NCBI GenBank assembly: GCA_035541935.1
Contig: DATKMJ010000071.1
Coordinates: 1-59,654 of the forward strand
DNA: 59,654 nucleotides
DNA from: Candidatus Binatia bacterium
Lineage (GTDB): Bacteria; Vulcanimicrobiota; Vulcanimicrobiia; Vulcanimicrobiales; Vulcanimicrobiaceae
Direction: 5' to 3'
Positions 13,204 through 59,654 of the stretch are shown here, piece by piece (the stretch's first letter is position 1; each line of letters starts with the position of its first letter). The position numbers and the translations under genes were made by a program. The notes under the pieces are model-generated. The model searched no databases and had not been told where the DNA came from. It saw only the letters and a program-made list of their open reading frames with translations.

Positions 13204-13279
13204 TGTCATCCTGAGCGTAGTCGAAGGACATCACGTGTCATCCTGAGCGGAGTCGAAGGGCTGAGCGGAGTCGAAGGGC
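13204..13279. repeat. Cluster of three dispersed GAGCGNAGTCGAAGG repeats
   Basis: Three copies of a unit reading GAGCG[G/T]AGTCGAAGG lie head to tail between the nucleotidyltransferase start and the HNH gene. Two of them carry the leader TCATCCT. A nine-copy array of the same unit is at 59382-59620. Such units are known as abundant dispersed repeats in many environmental bacterial genomes. On the minus strand they would be in the 5' leader of the nucleotidyltransferase transcript. Confidence 0.9.
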
Positions 13280-46084: not shown

Positions 46085-48757
46085 TCACGAGAGGGCGCGC
46101 GCGACGGCCTGCTCCTGCGGCCACGACGCGCCCTCGTCGAGGAGGCGCGCGAGCTCGGAAGCGCCGACGCGCTCTTCGAGCGCCCCGAGGAGTCGCTCGG
46201 CCATCGCGCGGTCGAACTCGGCGCGCACAAACTCGGCCGCCCGCAGCCGCTCCTCGGCGTAGCCGGCGAGTCGGGCGGCCCGAACCGGATCGCTCGCGCT
46301 CGCAACGATCGCCAAATACGAGATCGCCATCGGGACGACGACCGGATGGCGAGCCCTCGCGGCAAGCGCGAGGCCTTCGCGCGCGAACCCCTCCGCGCGG
46401 GCGTAGTCGCCGATCGCCAGATAACACCCCGCGATATCGGTGGCCCGATACATCATCGAATCGTGACCGGCATCGAGTTCGGCGGCATCGAGAAAACGCT
46501 GCGCCGCAGCGTCGAAATTGCCCACGTCCGCCTCCCACTGCCCCCACCACTCCAGGGCGCGAGCCGTCTCGTCATCGCGGCCGAGGCCGCGGAAGATTCC
46601 GACGCTCTCGTCGTAACGAGCGCGCACGGCATCGGTTCCGTCGGCGGAGAACGCGGTCGCGCAGCGGCGCAACGTGTCGGCGAGGAGGCGCCGATCGCCG
46701 GAGCCGCGAGCGAGCCGCAACGCTTCTTCCGCCGCGGCCCGCCCCTCGATCTCGTTCGTCTGGCGCGATGCAACTTGCGAGAGCGCCCGCGCCAGGCCGC
46801 GCGGGTCGCCTGCATCGCGATAGCGCGCAACCGCCGCAACCGCCTGCTCGAGCACCCGCGCGTTCGCGCCGACGTTGCTGTAGAGCATCGAAAGGCCGTA
46901 CCGCAGGCGCGCCTCGGTTTCGGGCTCGGGCGGCGGCACGATCGCGAGCGCGCTTTCGCAGTGCGCGATGCCTTCCTCGAGCAGCGAGAGCCGGAGAAAG
47001 GTCGGCGTTGCATCCGCAACGATTCGCGCGCCCAACGGGGGATCGTTCCCCGCTTCGAGGGCCCAATGTATCGCGATGCGCGCGTTGGCGAGATCGCGCT
47101 CCAGACGCGCGAGCCAATCGGCGCGCGGTCCGTTCTCCCATTCCTCGTAGCCCGCGCGAGCGAGCGCCGCGATCGCGCCGGCGTGGGCGCGCAACGCCGC
47201 GGCGGTCTCGGCGGCCCCCTCGAGCTTCTCGCGCGCGTACTCGCGGATCGGCTCGAGCAGCCGATAGCGCCCGTCCTGCGTTTCGGCGACGACGAGCGAT
47301 TTGTCGACGAGCGATCCGAGCGCGTCGAGCACCTCTCCCTTGGTCGCCCCTTGCGCACAGACGGCAACGGCGCTGGTGAGCGTGAATCCCCGAACGAAGA
47401 CGGCGCAGCGGCGCAAGACGCGACGCTCTCCCTCCGAGAGAAGGTCGTAGCTCCAATCTATGAGCGCGCGCATCGTCTGTTGACGCGGCCGGCGGTCCCG
47501 TCCGCCCGAGAGCATGCGAAGCTCGAGGTTCTCGGCGAGGCTCTCTACGGTCATCGTCCGAACGCGGGCCGCGGCCAGCTCGATGGCGAGCGCGATTCCG
47601 TCGAGGCGCTCGCAGATCTCGGCGACGATCGCCTTCTTCTCGTCGAGACGAAAGCGCGGATCGGCAGAGCGCGCGCGATCTCCGAAGAGTTGCATCGCGG
47701 AGGCCGCGTCGAGCGACGCGAGGCGATAAATTTGCTCGCCGGCGATGTCGAGAGGCTCGCGGCTCGTCGCCAGCGCGGTGACGTGCGCGCAGCGCGCGAC
47801 GATCACCGCAACGACTGCGGCGACCTCTGCGACGAGATGTTCGCTGTTGTCGAGCACGAGCAGCAGTTCCCGGTCCGCGAGATAGTCGAGCAGCGAGTCG
47901 AGCGGGTCCGCATCGGCCGCGCGTTTCGCTCCCAGCGTCGCGAGCAGCGTATCCGATATCAGCGAGGCGTCGGCGATGGATGCAAGGTCCACGAACCACG
48001 CCCCGTCGCGCTCGTCGTTGAGACGCGCCGCGGCAACCTCGAGCGCGAGCCGCGTCTTGCCGATGCCGCCCGCCCCGACGAGCGTCAGCAGCGAACCCGT
48101 CTCCAATAGCGCCTCGACCTTCGCGAGGTCGTCGCGGCGGCCGACGAAGGTCGTGTTCTGACGCGGAAGGTTATTCGGCGGCGTTTCGAGCGCGCGCAGA
48201 TCCTTGAAATCCGCGCGAAGCTCCGCGCCGACGGGCTGGTAGACGTTCTCCGGATCGGCGATGTCGCGGAGCGGGAGCGAACCGAGGTGACGCAGCGTTA
48301 TCCCTTCGGGCAGCGCGCCGAGCGCGAGATCGGCGGCGGTTCGCGAGAGCAGGATCTGACCCCCGTGCCCCGCCGAGAGCAGCCGCGCCGCGCGATTGAC
48401 CGCGGAGCCGAAGTAATCGCCGTCGCGTTCGTCGGTCTCGCCGGCATGAATCGCCATGCGGACGCCGAGTCCGTCGGTCGCGCCGAAATCCTCGCGCCCG
48501 AGCCGGCGCTGCGCGCCGACCGCCGCGGCGAGAGCGGCGCCGGCGTGCGCGAAGGCGGCGCAGAATGCATCGCCGATCGTCTTGAAGACGGCGCCGCCGT
48601 GCGTCTCGATCTCCGAACGCAGAATTTCATCGTGCCGGCGCAGCGCGTCGCGCATCGCGTCGCCGTAGCGCTCCCAGCGGCGCGTGCTTCCTTCGACGTC
48701 GGTAAAGAGAAACGCGACGACGCCGGTGGGCAGGCTCTGCATGAACGCGTCGTTCAC
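46085..48757 (-). CDS. Class III nucleotide cyclase with NB-ARC-type ATPase and TPR repeats
   Basis: The 890-residue protein begins with a class III adenylate/guanylate cyclase domain (residues about 12-180). Metal-binding aspartates are D20 (FLFTDVEGST) and D63 (TIGDAF). N121 and R125 in NRAARLL suit transition-state binding, so it looks catalytically complete. An AP-ATPase/NB-ARC module follows, with Walker A VGAGGIGKT (about 227-235) and LLVLDNSEH as Walker B. The C-terminal half is TPR-like helices. The start is a GTG at 48757 preceded by GGAG; an ATG at 48742 (MQSLPTGVVAF) also fits. It should make cAMP or cGMP in response to an unknown signal. Confidence 0.88.
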   Translation of the reverse strand: MNDAFMQSLPTGVVAFLFTDVEGSTRRWERYGDAMRDALRRHDEILRSEIETHGGAVFKTIGDAFCAAFAHAGAALAAAVGAQRRLGREDFGATDGLGVRMAIHAGETDERDGDYFGSAVNRAARLLSAGHGGQILLSRTAADLALGALPEGITLRHLGSLPLRDIADPENVYQPVGAELRADFKDLRALETPPNNLPRQNTTFVGRRDDLAKVEALLETGSLLTLVGAGGIGKTRLALEVAAARLNDERDGAWFVDLASIADASLISDTLLATLGAKRAADADPLDSLLDYLADRELLLVLDNSEHLVAEVAAVVAVIVARCAHVTALATSREPLDIAGEQIYRLASLDAASAMQLFGDRARSADPRFRLDEKKAIVAEICERLDGIALAIELAAARVRTMTVESLAENLELRMLSGGRDRRPRQQTMRALIDWSYDLLSEGERRVLRRCAVFVRGFTLTSAVAVCAQGATKGEVLDALGSLVDKSLVVAETQDGRYRLLEPIREYAREKLEGAAETAAALRAHAGAIAALARAGYEEWENGPRADWLARLERDLANARIAIHWALEAGNDPPLGARIVADATPTFLRLSLLEEGIAHCESALAIVPPPEPETEARLRYGLSMLYSNVGANARVLEQAVAAVARYRDAGDPRGLARALSQVASRQTNEIEGRAAAEEALRLARGSGDRRLLADTLRRCATAFSADGTDAVRARYDESVGIFRGLGRDDETARALEWWGQWEADVGNFDAAAQRFLDAAELDAGHDSMMYRATDIAGCYLAIGDYARAEGFAREGLALAARARHPVVVPMAISYLAIVASASDPVRAARLAGYAEERLRAAEFVRAEFDRAMAERLLGALEERVGASELARLLDEGASWPQEQAVARALS

Positions 48758-48801: not shown

Positions 48802-50349
48802 CTAGTTCAATCGGCGCTTATGGTAGAAGGCGCTGATCGGTACGACCGGCTGCGAGAATACGGCGACGAGCTCCGCGCGGCTCTTCACGTTGAATTGCTG
48901 GAAGAGCGCGGAGACCTGATTTCGCACCGTGTTCGGACTGCGCCCGAGCTGCTTCGCGATCTCGGTGTTACGCCGCCCGGCGCGAACGAGCTCGAGCACC
49001 TCGCGCTTCGCCGGCGGGATCCGGTCGAGATGGAGCACCGACGTATTCGTCGCATCGGCCACGCGGCGCGCGATCCAGCTCTGCGGCCAGGGTTCGATCT
49101 TGCGCGCGGCGCGCTGCACCCAGCGCCGGTCGCGCGTGATTTCGTAGAGCGCGAGCGCGCAGATCGCCGCTCGCCAGGCGTAGTTGAAATCCTCGAAGAT
49201 CGACCACGCTTCGGTCAACGCGGTGCGTCCTTCGTCGACGTCGCCGAGGCGAACCCAAGCGACGCCCTGCGAGTAGGATTCGAAGCCCTTGACGCGAGGG
49301 TCGGCTCCGTACGCGAGGATCGGAATCACGGACGTCGTCAGGGTTCGGAAGCGTGCGAGATACTGCTCGGCGATCGCTGCGTCGTCGTGCGCGAAGAGCT
49401 CCGCGAGCACGAGCAGCGCCGAGCGCTCCTCACCGCTCACGTCGTTCCACGAGAGCCGCTGTGCGGTTTCGTGCGCTTCGAGCAGTTGCTCGGTTGCAAA
49501 GGCCATCTCGCCGGTGTTCTTTGCGAGCAGCGCGCGGTCGAGATAGCAGAGAACGGACCAGTGCTCGGACGGAGCCAGCCTCGCCGCCTTGCGGAAGCCG
49601 GCGAAGGCCGCCAGCTCGTTACCCTCGAGCTCGTCGATCGCCGCGAGGAATCGGGTGACCTGGAAGCGCTCGAGTTTAAGGCCCGATGTCCACGGCAGCG
49701 TCTCGAAGATGCTGCGCACCCGATCGGCCACCTCGCGCAGCGGCAGCTCGCGACAGAGCAGCGCGAGCGTGAAGAGTGCGTTGGCACGGTAGTACTGGTC
49801 GGGCGTTGCAGCGGCGTCGAGCTCGTCGAGCGCCTTCTGCAACTCGTCCACCTGACGCAGAATCTCGCCGCGGCGCAGCGCGATCCAGGAGAGCATGATC
49901 CTGGCGCGGGCGCGGTTGTTCGGTTCGGGGGAGACGAGCTGGGCCGAGGCCGCCTCTTCGGCCTCCTCTTGGTCGTGCTTGATCCAGGCGATGACGGCCT
50001 TGTAGTAGAGCGCCTCGTCGTAGAGCGGGTCACCGGGAGTGAGCTCATTGAGGGCGCGCTCGATCAGCTTGCGGCCGGCGACGAAGTCACGGGTGAGTCC
50101 GAGCGCGGCGCCGAGCAGGACGTCGCGTGCCATCCGCGTCTCTGGCGGAGCCTTCGAGACGTCTGAGAGCAGGCCGATCATATCGACGTACCGGCGCTCG
50201 CGCAGCGCGAGTCGCGCTGCTGCGAGAACGGCGTCGACGCTACCGCCTACGGATACGAGCTCACGGCAACGGTCAAAGTCCGCAGCCGTGAACGCTCTCT
50301 CGAACTCGATCTTGTCGAAGCTCGGGCGACCTACGATAGCAATTGTCAA
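48802..50349 (-). CDS. LuxR-type transcriptional regulator with TPR-like sensor region
   Basis: The 515-residue protein has a long alpha-helical TPR-like region (residues about 30-430) and a C-terminal LuxR/GerE helix-turn-helix: EVLELVRAGRRNTEIAKQLGRSPNTVRNQVSALFQQFNVKSRAEL, quoted here as NTEIAKQLGRSPNTVRNQ. It should bind DNA in response to a partner or ligand. The start is a TTG at 50349 with AAAGGGA just upstream; no ATG or GTG is available before an in-frame stop. An inverted repeat TTTAAC-TG-GTTAAA covers the ribosome-binding region. It precedes the cyclase gene by 44 bases, so both may form one signalling operon. Confidence 0.83.
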   Translation of the reverse strand: MTIAIVGRPSFDKIEFERAFTAADFDRCRELVSVGGSVDAVLAAARLALRERRYVDMIGLLSDVSKAPPETRMARDVLLGAALGLTRDFVAGRKLIERALNELTPGDPLYDEALYYKAVIAWIKHDQEEAEEAASAQLVSPEPNNRARARIMLSWIALRRGEILRQVDELQKALDELDAAATPDQYYRANALFTLALLCRELPLREVADRVRSIFETLPWTSGLKLERFQVTRFLAAIDELEGNELAAFAGFRKAARLAPSEHWSVLCYLDRALLAKNTGEMAFATEQLLEAHETAQRLSWNDVSGEERSALLVLAELFAHDDAAIAEQYLARFRTLTTSVIPILAYGADPRVKGFESYSQGVAWVRLGDVDEGRTALTEAWSIFEDFNYAWRAAICALALYEITRDRRWVQRAARKIEPWPQSWIARRVADATNTSVLHLDRIPPAKREVLELVRAGRRNTEIAKQLGRSPNTVRNQVSALFQQFNVKSRAELVAVFSQPVVPISAFYHKRRLN

Positions 50350-50385: not shown

Positions 50386-50407
50386 ATCCGGCGGTCAACC
50401 GCCGGAT
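50386..50407. terminator. Strong hairpin between the repeat lipoprotein and the LuxR gene
   Basis: ATCCGGCGGT and ACCGCCGGAT are perfect arms around two bases. It lies 43 bases after the stop of the repeat lipoprotein (minus strand). No T run follows, so it may only attenuate or protect the mRNA. Confidence 0.45.
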
Positions 50408-50449: not shown

Positions 50450-50872
50450 TTACCTGCCTCCCGCGCTTTTAGGAGGGCCTCCTCCTACAGAGTCGCCCGG
50501 CTTGGCAACCACGGGCGGGCCGCCGCCGACGGAGTCGCCCGGCTTGGCAACCACGGGCGGGCCGCCGCCGACGGAGTCGCCCGGCCTGGCAACCACGGGT
50601 GGGCCGCCGCCGACGGAGTCGCCCGGCTTGGCAACCACGGGTGGGCCACCGCCGACAGAGTCGCCCGGCCGAAGGATTACGGGTGGGCCGCCGCCGACGG
50701 AGTCGCCCGGCTTGGCAACCACGGGCGGACCGCCGCCGACCGAGTCGAGGTGGTGCATCATGCTCTGGCTCGTGGCAGGCAATAACGAACCGCCGGAAAT
50801 ACCACCGCCCGCGCATCCGCCGAGCATTGCGGCGGAAACGACCACAGCGGCCACGACGATCATCTTGCGCAT
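50450..50872 (-). CDS. Lipoprotein built of 14-residue tandem repeats
   Basis: The 140-residue product has a signal peptide with lipobox MLGGC (Cys at residue 20) and a short Gly/Ser linker. Six copies of DSVGGGPPVVAKPG follow, with small changes (one reads PVILRPG), and a seventh ends in PPKSAGGR. The repeat region spans about residues 43-135. The Gly/Pro/Val composition suggests an extended elastic or fibrous surface protein, as with elastin-like sequences, but no domain family matches. It is probably attached to the outer membrane by its lipid. The unit also repeats at DNA level (42 bases). Confidence 0.8.
   Translation of the reverse strand: MRKMIVVAAVVVSAAMLGGCAGGGISGGSLLPATSQSMMHHLDSVGGGPPVVAKPGDSVGGGPPVILRPGDSVGGGPPVVAKPGDSVGGGPPVVARPGDSVGGGPPVVAKPGDSVGGGPPVVAKPGDSVGGGPPKSAGGR
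50473..50746. repeat. 42-bp tandem repeats (about seven units) inside the lipoprotein gene
   Basis: Units such as GGGCGGGCCGCCGCCGACGG with CTTGGCAACCAC recur every 42 bases, encoding DSVGGGPPVVAKPG. Copies differ by a few bases. Such arrays often change copy number by slippage or recombination. Confidence 0.9.
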
Positions 50873-51125
50873 TATGTTGATGCCTTTCAGCGCCTGGGGG
50901 CGCCAGGAAGCAAAAGTAGTAGTACGAATATACTAGTACCAAAAAGCCTCCAAGGATAGGGCCGCTTGGCAAACTTTGCATTTACTAACTAAACCTAGCG
51001 GGTGTGGACGGATAATTCGGCCTTTGGGACGGGCGAGCGCAGCCTCTAGAGCGCCCGTCGCTTCGTGCTGCCCCCCGGCAGCGGCCACGACGCCCCGCTA
51101 CCATCATCTAACGAGGGGTCTTGCC
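50873..51125. promoter_or_regulatory. Divergent intergenic region
   Basis: This 253-base gap separates the repeat lipoprotein (minus) from the next lipoprotein (plus) and should hold both promoters. It contains AGTAGTAGTACGAATATACT (50915-50934) and GGATAGGGCC (50954-50963). Similar GTACTA/GGATAGGG strings lie at 50403-50430 before the LuxR gene. No sigma-type -35/-10 pair is clear. Confidence 0.4.
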
Positions 51126-53381: not shown

Positions 53382-54782
53382 CTATTGGGTATCCGGCCAC
53401 CGCGGATCGAGCGGCTGATGCAGGAAATACTCCTTGTCGTAGGGCGAGTTGATCTCTTTGAACTTCCGCGGGGGCTTCTTAAAGTTGAAGACGTCGACCG
53501 GAGAGGTCGCCCGCGCGTCGCTTGCCGCCAGGCGCGGCAATCCCCAGATGTCTTCGACGAACCGCAGGATGCTGCCGTGCTCGTAGTGCGTGTGCGAGAC
53601 CTTGCCCTTCTTCACGTACGGCGAGATGATCAGCATCGGAATGCGCAAGCCGAGCCCGTCGTAATCGAGCATCTGCGGCGCCTCCGGATCGTACCAGCCG
53701 CCGTAATCGTCCCAGAAGACGAAGATCGCCGTCGAGTTCCAGTACTGCGACTCGCCGATCGCGTTGACGAGCGAGGTGACCCACGAGGGCCCGGTGTTGG
53801 AGCCGCAGCCGGCATGATCGGAGTTCTCGCACGTCGGCGTAATCCAGCTCACCGAGCGCAGCTTGCCGTTTGAGACGTCGTTGAAGAAGTTCGTCTGTGG
53901 CGAGATGACGTCGGCCTTCCAGTCGGGGCCGTTATAGATATGATTGATCGCCTGATAGGCGCTCCAGATGTTGCCGTCGCCGTTGATCGACGCGGTGTAG
54001 AAGCCCCACGAGACGCCGGCCGCGTCGAGTTCGTCGCCGAGCGTCTCCGGATCCCAGCAGACGACTTCGTAGCCCGTGTCGACTTGACGCTGCTGGTTGA
54101 CCTCGCCGATCTCGTCGCCCGGCCCGCCGGGGCAGCCCCAGGCGCCGAACGGGTAGTTGACCGCGGATTCGGCCTGTCCCGAGATGATGTACTGGTGCGA
54201 AATAAAGCTGCTCGCGTCAAAATTCGATGCATACATCTGGTCGGCGAGAACGTACTGCTTGCCCATGTCGAAGTACGGCTTCGTCTCGCTATGCGGAACG
54301 TAACTGTACGGCGGGTTGGCATTGGGACACTTCGGCTGACCGGCGTGGCCGCAGCCGGCATACTCCCTGTTGAAGCCGTTCATCTGGCAGTCGGTGCCCG
54401 GGAAACTGCCCGTACCGTTGCACGCCTCAAAGAACGAGGACGAGCTATGGTCGAGATCCCAGGTCGTCTCCAAGCCGACCGGCTGCAGCGTGATCGGCTG
54501 ATTCGAGGAGTTGAGGCCGAACGTGACGGTCTTGGCGCCCTTAAAACCATAGAACAGATTGTTAAAAGAACGATTCTCTTGAACGATGATGACGACGTGT
54601 TGGATCGGACCGCTAGCGCTGTGATGGCGGACGTGCAGCAGCGGCGCGTGCACCGGCTGCCGGGTTACGGCAAACGGAGCGATCGACGGCGTGCCGGTCA
54701 CGCCATTACCGTTGCAAGCTGAGAATGCGAGCGCGGTAACCGCAAGCAACGGCAACCGGCTCGTAAGCGGGGTACAACGCAT
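53382..54782 (-). CDS. Lipoprotein of the phosphoesterase (acid phosphatase / phospholipase C) family
   Basis: The 466-residue product has a signal peptide with lipobox AFSAC (Cys at residue 23). The catalytic domain is of the PF04185 type: VVIIVQENRSFNNLFYGF (N-terminal metal-binding E-N-R-S), NFDASSFISHQYIISGQAES, IFVFWDDYGGWYDPE and VSHTHYEHGSILRFVEDIW. Family members release phosphate or cleave phospholipids. Cysteines such as FEACNGTGSFPGTDC and CGHAGQPKC suggest disulfides. It lies upstream of the patatin gene with a 42-base gap, so both may attack lipids together. Confidence 0.88.
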   Translation of the reverse strand: MRCTPLTSRLPLLAVTALAFSACNGNGVTGTPSIAPFAVTRQPVHAPLLHVRHHSASGPIQHVVIIVQENRSFNNLFYGFKGAKTVTFGLNSSNQPITLQPVGLETTWDLDHSSSSFFEACNGTGSFPGTDCQMNGFNREYAGCGHAGQPKCPNANPPYSYVPHSETKPYFDMGKQYVLADQMYASNFDASSFISHQYIISGQAESAVNYPFGAWGCPGGPGDEIGEVNQQRQVDTGYEVVCWDPETLGDELDAAGVSWGFYTASINGDGNIWSAYQAINHIYNGPDWKADVISPQTNFFNDVSNGKLRSVSWITPTCENSDHAGCGSNTGPSWVTSLVNAIGESQYWNSTAIFVFWDDYGGWYDPEAPQMLDYDGLGLRIPMLIISPYVKKGKVSHTHYEHGSILRFVEDIWGLPRLAASDARATSPVDVFNFKKPPRKFKEINSPYDKEYFLHQPLDPRWPDTQ

Positions 54783-59126: not shown

Positions 59127-59654
59127 TCATTCGTAGATGCCGCGGAAATACCAGTGCGAGCCTTGCCGGTAGATGCGCGCGAAGGTACCGCTCTCCAAGA
59201 CGACGTCGTACTCATCGCGCCCCTCGGCGCAATCCGAGTGCGACCGCTCGGCGATGCGCCACGGACCGGCGCACTGCCGCACCGCCTGCCGATCGACGAC
59301 CGCCGGTTCGCCGCCGCGCAACTGAACCGGCACCTCTCGCACTTCGTGCAGCCGCAACTGCGGAACGAGCTCACTTCGCTTGTCACCCTGAGCGGAGTCG
59401 AAGGGCTTAACCGTGTCACCCTGAGCGTAGTCGAAGGGCTTAACCGTGTCATCCTGAGCGGAGTCGAAGGGCTGAGCGTAGTCGAAGGGCTTGTCATCCT
59501 GAGCGGAGTCGAAGGGCTTAACCGTGTCACCCTGAGCGGAGTCGAAGGGCTGAGCGTAGTCGAAGGGCTTAACCGTGTCACCCTGAGCGGAGTCGAAGGG
59601 CTGAGCGTAGTCGAAGGGCTGCCGAAGGACGAAAGGCTCGTAACGAAATCGCTC
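59127..59654 (-). CDS. C-terminus of an ImuB-like / Y-family polymerase-related protein (partial)
   Basis: The minus-strand frame is open from the window edge to the stop at 59127 (175 residues). Its last 75 residues (LHEVREVPVQLRGGEPAVVD through WRIAERSHSDCAEGRDEYDVVLE to HWYFRGIYE, given in parts) match the DUF6504-type tail of ImuB/DNA-polymerase-Y-family proteins. Upstream of that is an in-frame array of PFDSAQ/PFDYAQ units encoded by the dispersed repeat. Context with dnaE2 supports ImuB; the polymerase domain itself is outside the window, so the call is provisional. Confidence 0.6.
   Translation of the reverse strand, partial: ERFRYEPFVLRQPFDYAQPFDSAQGDTVKPFDYAQPFDSAQGDTVKPFDSAQDDKPFDYAQPFDSAQDDTVKPFDYAQGDTVKPFDSAQGDKRSELVPQLRLHEVREVPVQLRGGEPAVVDRQAVRQCAGPWRIAERSHSDCAEGRDEYDVVLESGTFARIYRQGSHWYFRGIYE
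59382..59620. repeat. Nine-copy array of the dispersed GAGCGNAGTCGAAGG repeat
   Basis: Nine copies of GAGCG[G/T]AGTCGAAGG are joined either directly (CT spacer) or by CTTAACCGTGTCAYCCT or CTTGTCATCCT spacers. The same unit occurs three times at 13204-13279. The array interrupts the ImuB-like gene but keeps its reading frame, coding for nine PFD[S/Y]AQ units on the minus strand. Confidence 0.93.

Follow-up and report, generated by a model that had tools for sequence, protein, structure and literature searches.

The locus and its products

The window (the whole stretch of 59,654 nucleotides that was analysed) contains a gene for a small lipoprotein made up largely of repeats, directly upstream of a gene for a TPR-LuxR regulator. 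The features of the locus are as follows.

50450..50872, minus strand: repeat lipoprotein gene, candidate multi-copy peptide-signal precursor, 140 residues (ORF and translation; orthologs)
50813..50872, minus strand: signal peptide with lipobox LGGC, Cys20 (translation; leader kept in genus orthologs; LspA in the genome)
50495..50746, minus strand: six full 14-residue units, each a DSVGGGPP core with a 6-residue spacer (Tandem Repeats Finder, unit comparison)
50471..50494, minus strand: seventh DSVGGGPP core, followed by KSAGGR and the stop codon (translation)
48802..50349, minus strand: TPR-LuxR (GerE) regulator, proposed cognate receptor (orthologs, Pfam, AlphaFold model, structure matches)
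46085..48757, minus strand: guanylate-cyclase/NB-ARC/TPR-type regulator, a conserved neighbour separated from the LuxR gene by about 45 bp
50920..50939, minus strand: 20-bp box GTACTAGTATATTCGTACTA, candidate operator or promoter element (conserved in the genus, single site in the window)
50907..51003, minus strand: upstream stretch that is conserved across species and contains the 20-bp box (alignment)
50386..50407, minus strand: hairpin with perfect 9-bp arms between the candidate precursor gene and the regulator gene, not conserved in most orthologs

The lipobox (residues 17-20) is followed about 22 residues later by the array, of which residues 43-126 are the six full units and residues 127-134 the seventh core. 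This is the architecture that the earlier note had described, a 140-residue lipoprotein with six complete 14-residue repeats and a partial one; the "perfect" 42-bp unit of that note is not found, the six full units having 31-42 of 42 bases in common pairwise, with only one identical pair. Recent expansion, which the note had proposed, can be upheld in part only, the copies carrying many synonymous differences. Tandem Repeats Finder gave the array (score 406, period 42, 6.5 copies, 87% matches) the top score among 15 tandem-repeat rows in the window. Elsewhere in the window, CTGAGCGGAGTCGAAGGG occurs in tandem within a longer repeat near the end (59381-59621), with a second short site at 13243-13279. 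ORFs in other frames over the lipoprotein repeats were rejected as the gene because the frame of 50450-50872 is conserved in relatives, the point on which the earlier note had staked the gene, and because the copies differ mainly synonymously in that frame. Assignment to no known family, also proposed earlier, agrees with the profile searches: Pfam gave only a sub-threshold match to Cupin_2, and NCBIfam none.

The adjacent regulator has its GerE helix-turn-helix (HTH) at the C-terminus (residues 449-497), and Pfam matched it only to HTH-type families and, weakly, to one TPR-type repeat, with neither an autoinducer-binding domain before GerE nor an ATPase domain. None of the 11 Pfam families that matched at an E value of 0.1 or lower, and none of the 15 NCBIfam families that matched at 0.01 or lower, is an RRNPP family. 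The AlphaFold model (pLDDT 89.6) predicts a long TPR superhelix and a C-terminal GerE HTH, and Rap, NprR or AimR quorum sensors account for 14 of the 50 structural matches listed by VIA-align (RapI, Z 21.4). The model shares its TPR fold with peptide quorum sensors; since most of the other matches among the 50 listed are eukaryotic TPR scaffolds, this fold is compatible with a peptide sensor and is not proof of one.

Beyond it, the guanylate-cyclase/NB-ARC/TPR protein (46085-48757, minus strand) matches FxSxx_TPR of NCBIfam only weakly, far short of the cut-off. The surroundings of the gene pair in loci of the genus include, with varying completeness, phosphoesterase genes, the cyclase/NB-ARC regulator, a small lipoprotein and a TonB-type gene. 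The PF04185 phosphoesterase genes (window 53382-54782; loci L024-L035) stand in tandem next to the pair in many relatives, with as many as five copies per array. The genome contains eight SBP_bac_5 matches, one LspA and one Omp85 (outer-membrane assembly protein).

Selection on the core within the genus

Among 98 genomes searched, clear homologs of the lipoprotein were mainly confined to the same genus. The orthologs share a leader (MR..., next LGGCAGG or a close variant, next S.LP), after which come repeated cores that read DSVGGGPP in genomes G000, G007 and G010, DSVGGGPV in G008, DSVGGGIP/LP in G013, G005 and G001, SVGGGPP in G006 and G016, SVGGSIP in G003, G009 and G014, and VVGGGPS/T in G011 and G002. 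Copy number ranges from 2 (in two relatives, G010 and G001) to 13 in complete orthologs, bearing out the copy-number variation that the earlier note had anticipated; three further genes run off the contig end. MAG contigs end inside the array at L030, L031 and L032 (three relatives), so that true copy numbers are hidden there by assembly.

The spacers between cores vary in length and sequence among orthologs, and in G007 even from copy to copy. Of the 52 columns (13 genes) at the four core codon positions that had played no part in finding the copies, only 2 vary in amino acid, 39 vary only synonymously and 11 are invariant; in 8 of the 13 genes the first codon past the core shows amino-acid variation. 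With nearly all variation in the core codons synonymous and amino-acid changes appearing in the codon that follows, the core peptide is the part that is kept, and selection, as read from these codons, acts on the core as against the spacers.

The order of the two genes is the same in G001 as in the window, and a LuxR ortholog (67-78% identity) follows the candidate precursor in all nine fetched genus loci that have both genes; in two of the nine (L025 and the L033/L035 type) the repeats are divergent, and the precursor was identified by homolog search and reading of the locus. The box GTACTAGTATATTCGTACTA is found once in the window, against 0 sites expected; it is present in 13 of the 18 genomes of the genus, where it lies exclusively at the candidate precursor gene (G008 has two overlapping copies). 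In G001 the gene pair is present and the box is absent, even allowing 2 mismatches, which counts against reading the lipoprotein as a signal precursor. A scan found no sigma-70 consensus promoter and no terminator, and the TATATT inside the box is therefore no more than suggestive. A structured 5' leader of the candidate precursor was not significant (z -0.95); for the intergenic hairpin, z is -1.77 in the window, and exact hairpins are present in 2 of 11 intergenic regions.

Regulators and upstream ORFs across the class

Homologs of the regulator at about 30% identity are numerous in other genera and families, and a profile search gave about 150 TPR-LuxR matches in 51 of the 83 genomes of the class. 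The largest set, an unusually large one, comprises eleven TPR-LuxR genes in one genome (G117). A TPR-LuxR of this family is also present in L141, a record titled Rhodospirillales that may be mislabelled. A scan of viral contigs yielded no phage-borne relatives.

From the profile search of the 83 genomes, 90 matches were newly fetched, the remaining partial or weak matches being left out, and 89 of these later loci were compared with 145 other genes of the same stretches as controls (L261, with fewer than 500 bases upstream, was excluded). A small secreted ORF lies upstream of the regulator at 47 of the 89 loci versus 10 of the 145 controls (Fisher 2.5e-15), and the upstream ORF has a [DE]x(0-4)GG core at 32 loci versus 1 control (Fisher 1.4e-14; the D..GG motif was set down before the 89 loci were fetched, and the regular expression was fixed after their first inspection) and an internal repeat at 10 loci versus 0 controls (Fisher 4.6e-5). 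By the strict rule, 42 of the 89 loci have no candidate small ORF, which also weighs against a signal. The whole set of 133 loci, which omits L261 and five contig-end LuxR loci (L085, L116-L119), includes 78 candidate ORFs, 57 cores and 24 repeats, versus 11, 1 and 0 among 173 control ORFs.

The cores of the first paralogs were DTPGGPIP (x3), DTSGGPM (x3), DSGGAMTGD (x2), DGGGSMP, DSTGGMDGD, EGSHPPY (x3) and DGTLPPY (x2), and those of later loci include DSTHGGAV (x7), DSIGGPLT (x4-5), DTIGGGF (x3), DTGTTTGK (x3) and DSGSGPAG (x3). The 76 candidate precursors readable out of 80 labelled have a median length of 61.5 residues, the shortest paralogs being 38 residues long with a single different core. 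At least two core copies are found in 29 of the 76 (18 of 65 outside the clade of the window), the last core ends at most 6 residues from the C-terminus in 51, and a lipobox-like sequence is present in 29 and absent from 47.

In a tree of 138 regulators the core types cluster with receptor clades, and core similarity is correlated with receptor identity (Mantel r 0.49, or 0.27 for receptors less than 50% identical, neither value being reached in any of 2000 permutations), the core labels of 80 precursors having been given by eye for both tree and Mantel test, with "none" including missed or contig-edge cases. One clade of 18 regulators in this tree lacks core peptides, a further point against signalling. 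At least two members of that clade (L205, L213) have an upstream ORF with CarboxypepD_reg (PF13620), and others look similar by eye.

Several other receptor clades have their own conserved boxes of CTAG or GTAC type. Inverted repeats of at least 7 bp are found in 36 of 76 candidate precursor promoters versus 54 of 215 control upstream regions, and CTAG in 54 versus 58 of the same sets, a contrast that is weak because GC content differs (0.54 and 0.62) and some of the control ORFs may be spurious.

A proposed peptide signal and its relation to known systems

The gene pair is spread through the class, its tandem, clade-specific cores track the receptor clades, and at the locus in the window it is accompanied by a unique conserved promoter box. 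The repeat lipoprotein is probably, judging from sequence and gene context, a multi-copy peptide-pheromone precursor, and the regulator next door its cognate cytoplasmic receptor. The precursor would be exported as a lipoprotein (as the lipobox and the LspA of the genome suggest), and proteases would release the repeated core, approximately DSVGGGPP. The peptide may be taken up again, for example through one of the genome's oligopeptide-binding-protein systems (the eight SBP_bac_5 matches), and would bind the TPR superhelix of the adjacent LuxR-type regulator, which could then act at other targets as well as at the conserved box in the promoter of the precursor gene itself. A lipid anchor on a released signal is a point against this proposal, though a lipobox-like sequence recurs in the 29 candidate precursors mentioned above. 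Gly/Pro-rich repeats expand easily, and so repeat number by itself proves little.

The same pairing and lipobox, together with the presence of LspA and Omp85, would also suit an envelope-located ligand or decoy that reports the state of the envelope (such as protease activity) to the regulator of the same cell rather than an intercellular signal, and a cleaved peptide could act inside one cell; such a role is unlikely, however, as many paralogous precursors (47 of 76) have no lipobox-like sequence, and the diverse clade-specific cores suit signalling specificity better. It is improbable that the product is a surface lipoprotein whose repeat serves a structural, elastin-like or adhesive role and whose expression is merely controlled by the adjacent regulator. 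The lipobox, the Gly/Pro/Val-rich repeats and the variable copy number are what such a protein might have, and the earlier note had likened the product to elastin or other fibrous sequences, but that likeness is set aside because the spacers vary freely while a core of 7-8 residues is held; moreover, the array is often short in relatives, down to the 2 copies of G010 and G001, the gene goes together with a TPR-LuxR regulator, the cores track regulator clades, and paralogous precursors, some of only 38 residues with a single different core, are equally short and carry other cores in one to seven copies. That the gene encodes a multi-core precursor of a RiPP (a modified peptide) under the control of the adjacent LuxR regulator is highly improbable despite the layout of leader and repeated cores, since profiles identified no maturase among the neighbours checked and the conserved neighbours are regulators, phosphoesterase-family proteins and TonB-type proteins.

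Beyond the pheromone precursor proposed for this locus, the chances appear somewhat better than even that Eremiobacterota, a diderm phylum, possess a large and diversified peptide-signal set of TPR-LuxR receptors (up to 11 receptor genes per genome), many with their own, often multi-copy "D..GG" precursor, unrelated in sequence to the sets of Bacillota and independent of RRNPPA. A search of PMC titles and abstract openings, with subscription papers and preprints outside its scope, returned no paper on such systems in Eremiobacterota. The host phylum is mostly uncultured and has an outer membrane, and experimenters gain short, synthesisable candidate signals, a named putative receptor and a defined DNA box.

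The yeast alpha-factor precursor, a fungal multi-copy pheromone precursor, is secreted and contains several copies of a short signal split by spacers. The proposed precursor would resemble it in being secreted with spacer-separated signal copies, whereas organisms, receptors and processing are unrelated. Among LuxR-type regulators, those such as MalT combine a C-terminal GerE HTH with a helical-repeat sensor part, as does the regulator in the window, which differs from them in having no ATPase domain by Pfam and in being paired with a small secreted peptide gene, and from the acyl-homoserine-lactone receptors of LuxR type in having no autoinducer-binding domain before GerE by Pfam.

Closest in layout are the RRNPPA systems of Bacillota (Rap-Phr, NprR-NprX, PlcR-PapR, AimR-AimP), in which, as here, a small secreted propeptide gene adjoins the receptor gene. 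Intracellular peptide receptors of TPR type with propeptides next to them are on record from Bacillota and from the mobile elements of Bacillota (PMC9765709, PMC10075063). Multi-copy propeptides with up to six copies of the mature peptide are described in AimR, NprR, PlcR and Rap systems, and a signal peptidase II lipobox in a minority of RRNPPA propeptides, 211 of 2,734 (PMC9765709); for two Rap systems the peptide is described as processed from tandem copies (PMC11343458). The candidate precursors of the class likewise often have a C-terminal core, several copies of it and, in a minority, a lipobox, and the AlphaFold model of the receptor is a TPR superhelix like the cytoplasmic RRNPPA receptors. 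RRNPPA receptors have an N-terminal XRE-type HTH or a Rap-type helical bundle, whereas the regulator in the window has a C-terminal GerE (LuxR-type) HTH; the host belongs to Eremiobacterota and has an Omp85-type outer-membrane protein, and the cores are of D..GG type in up to 13 copies. Since the HTH type differs and no RRNPP profile matched, the system would work like RRNPPA without being a member, and it is possibly an independent invention of an RRNPPA-like layout. With about 150 TPR-LuxR matches in 51 of 83 genomes, many of them accompanied by tandem-core precursors, this peptide-signalling layout would then have arisen more than once.
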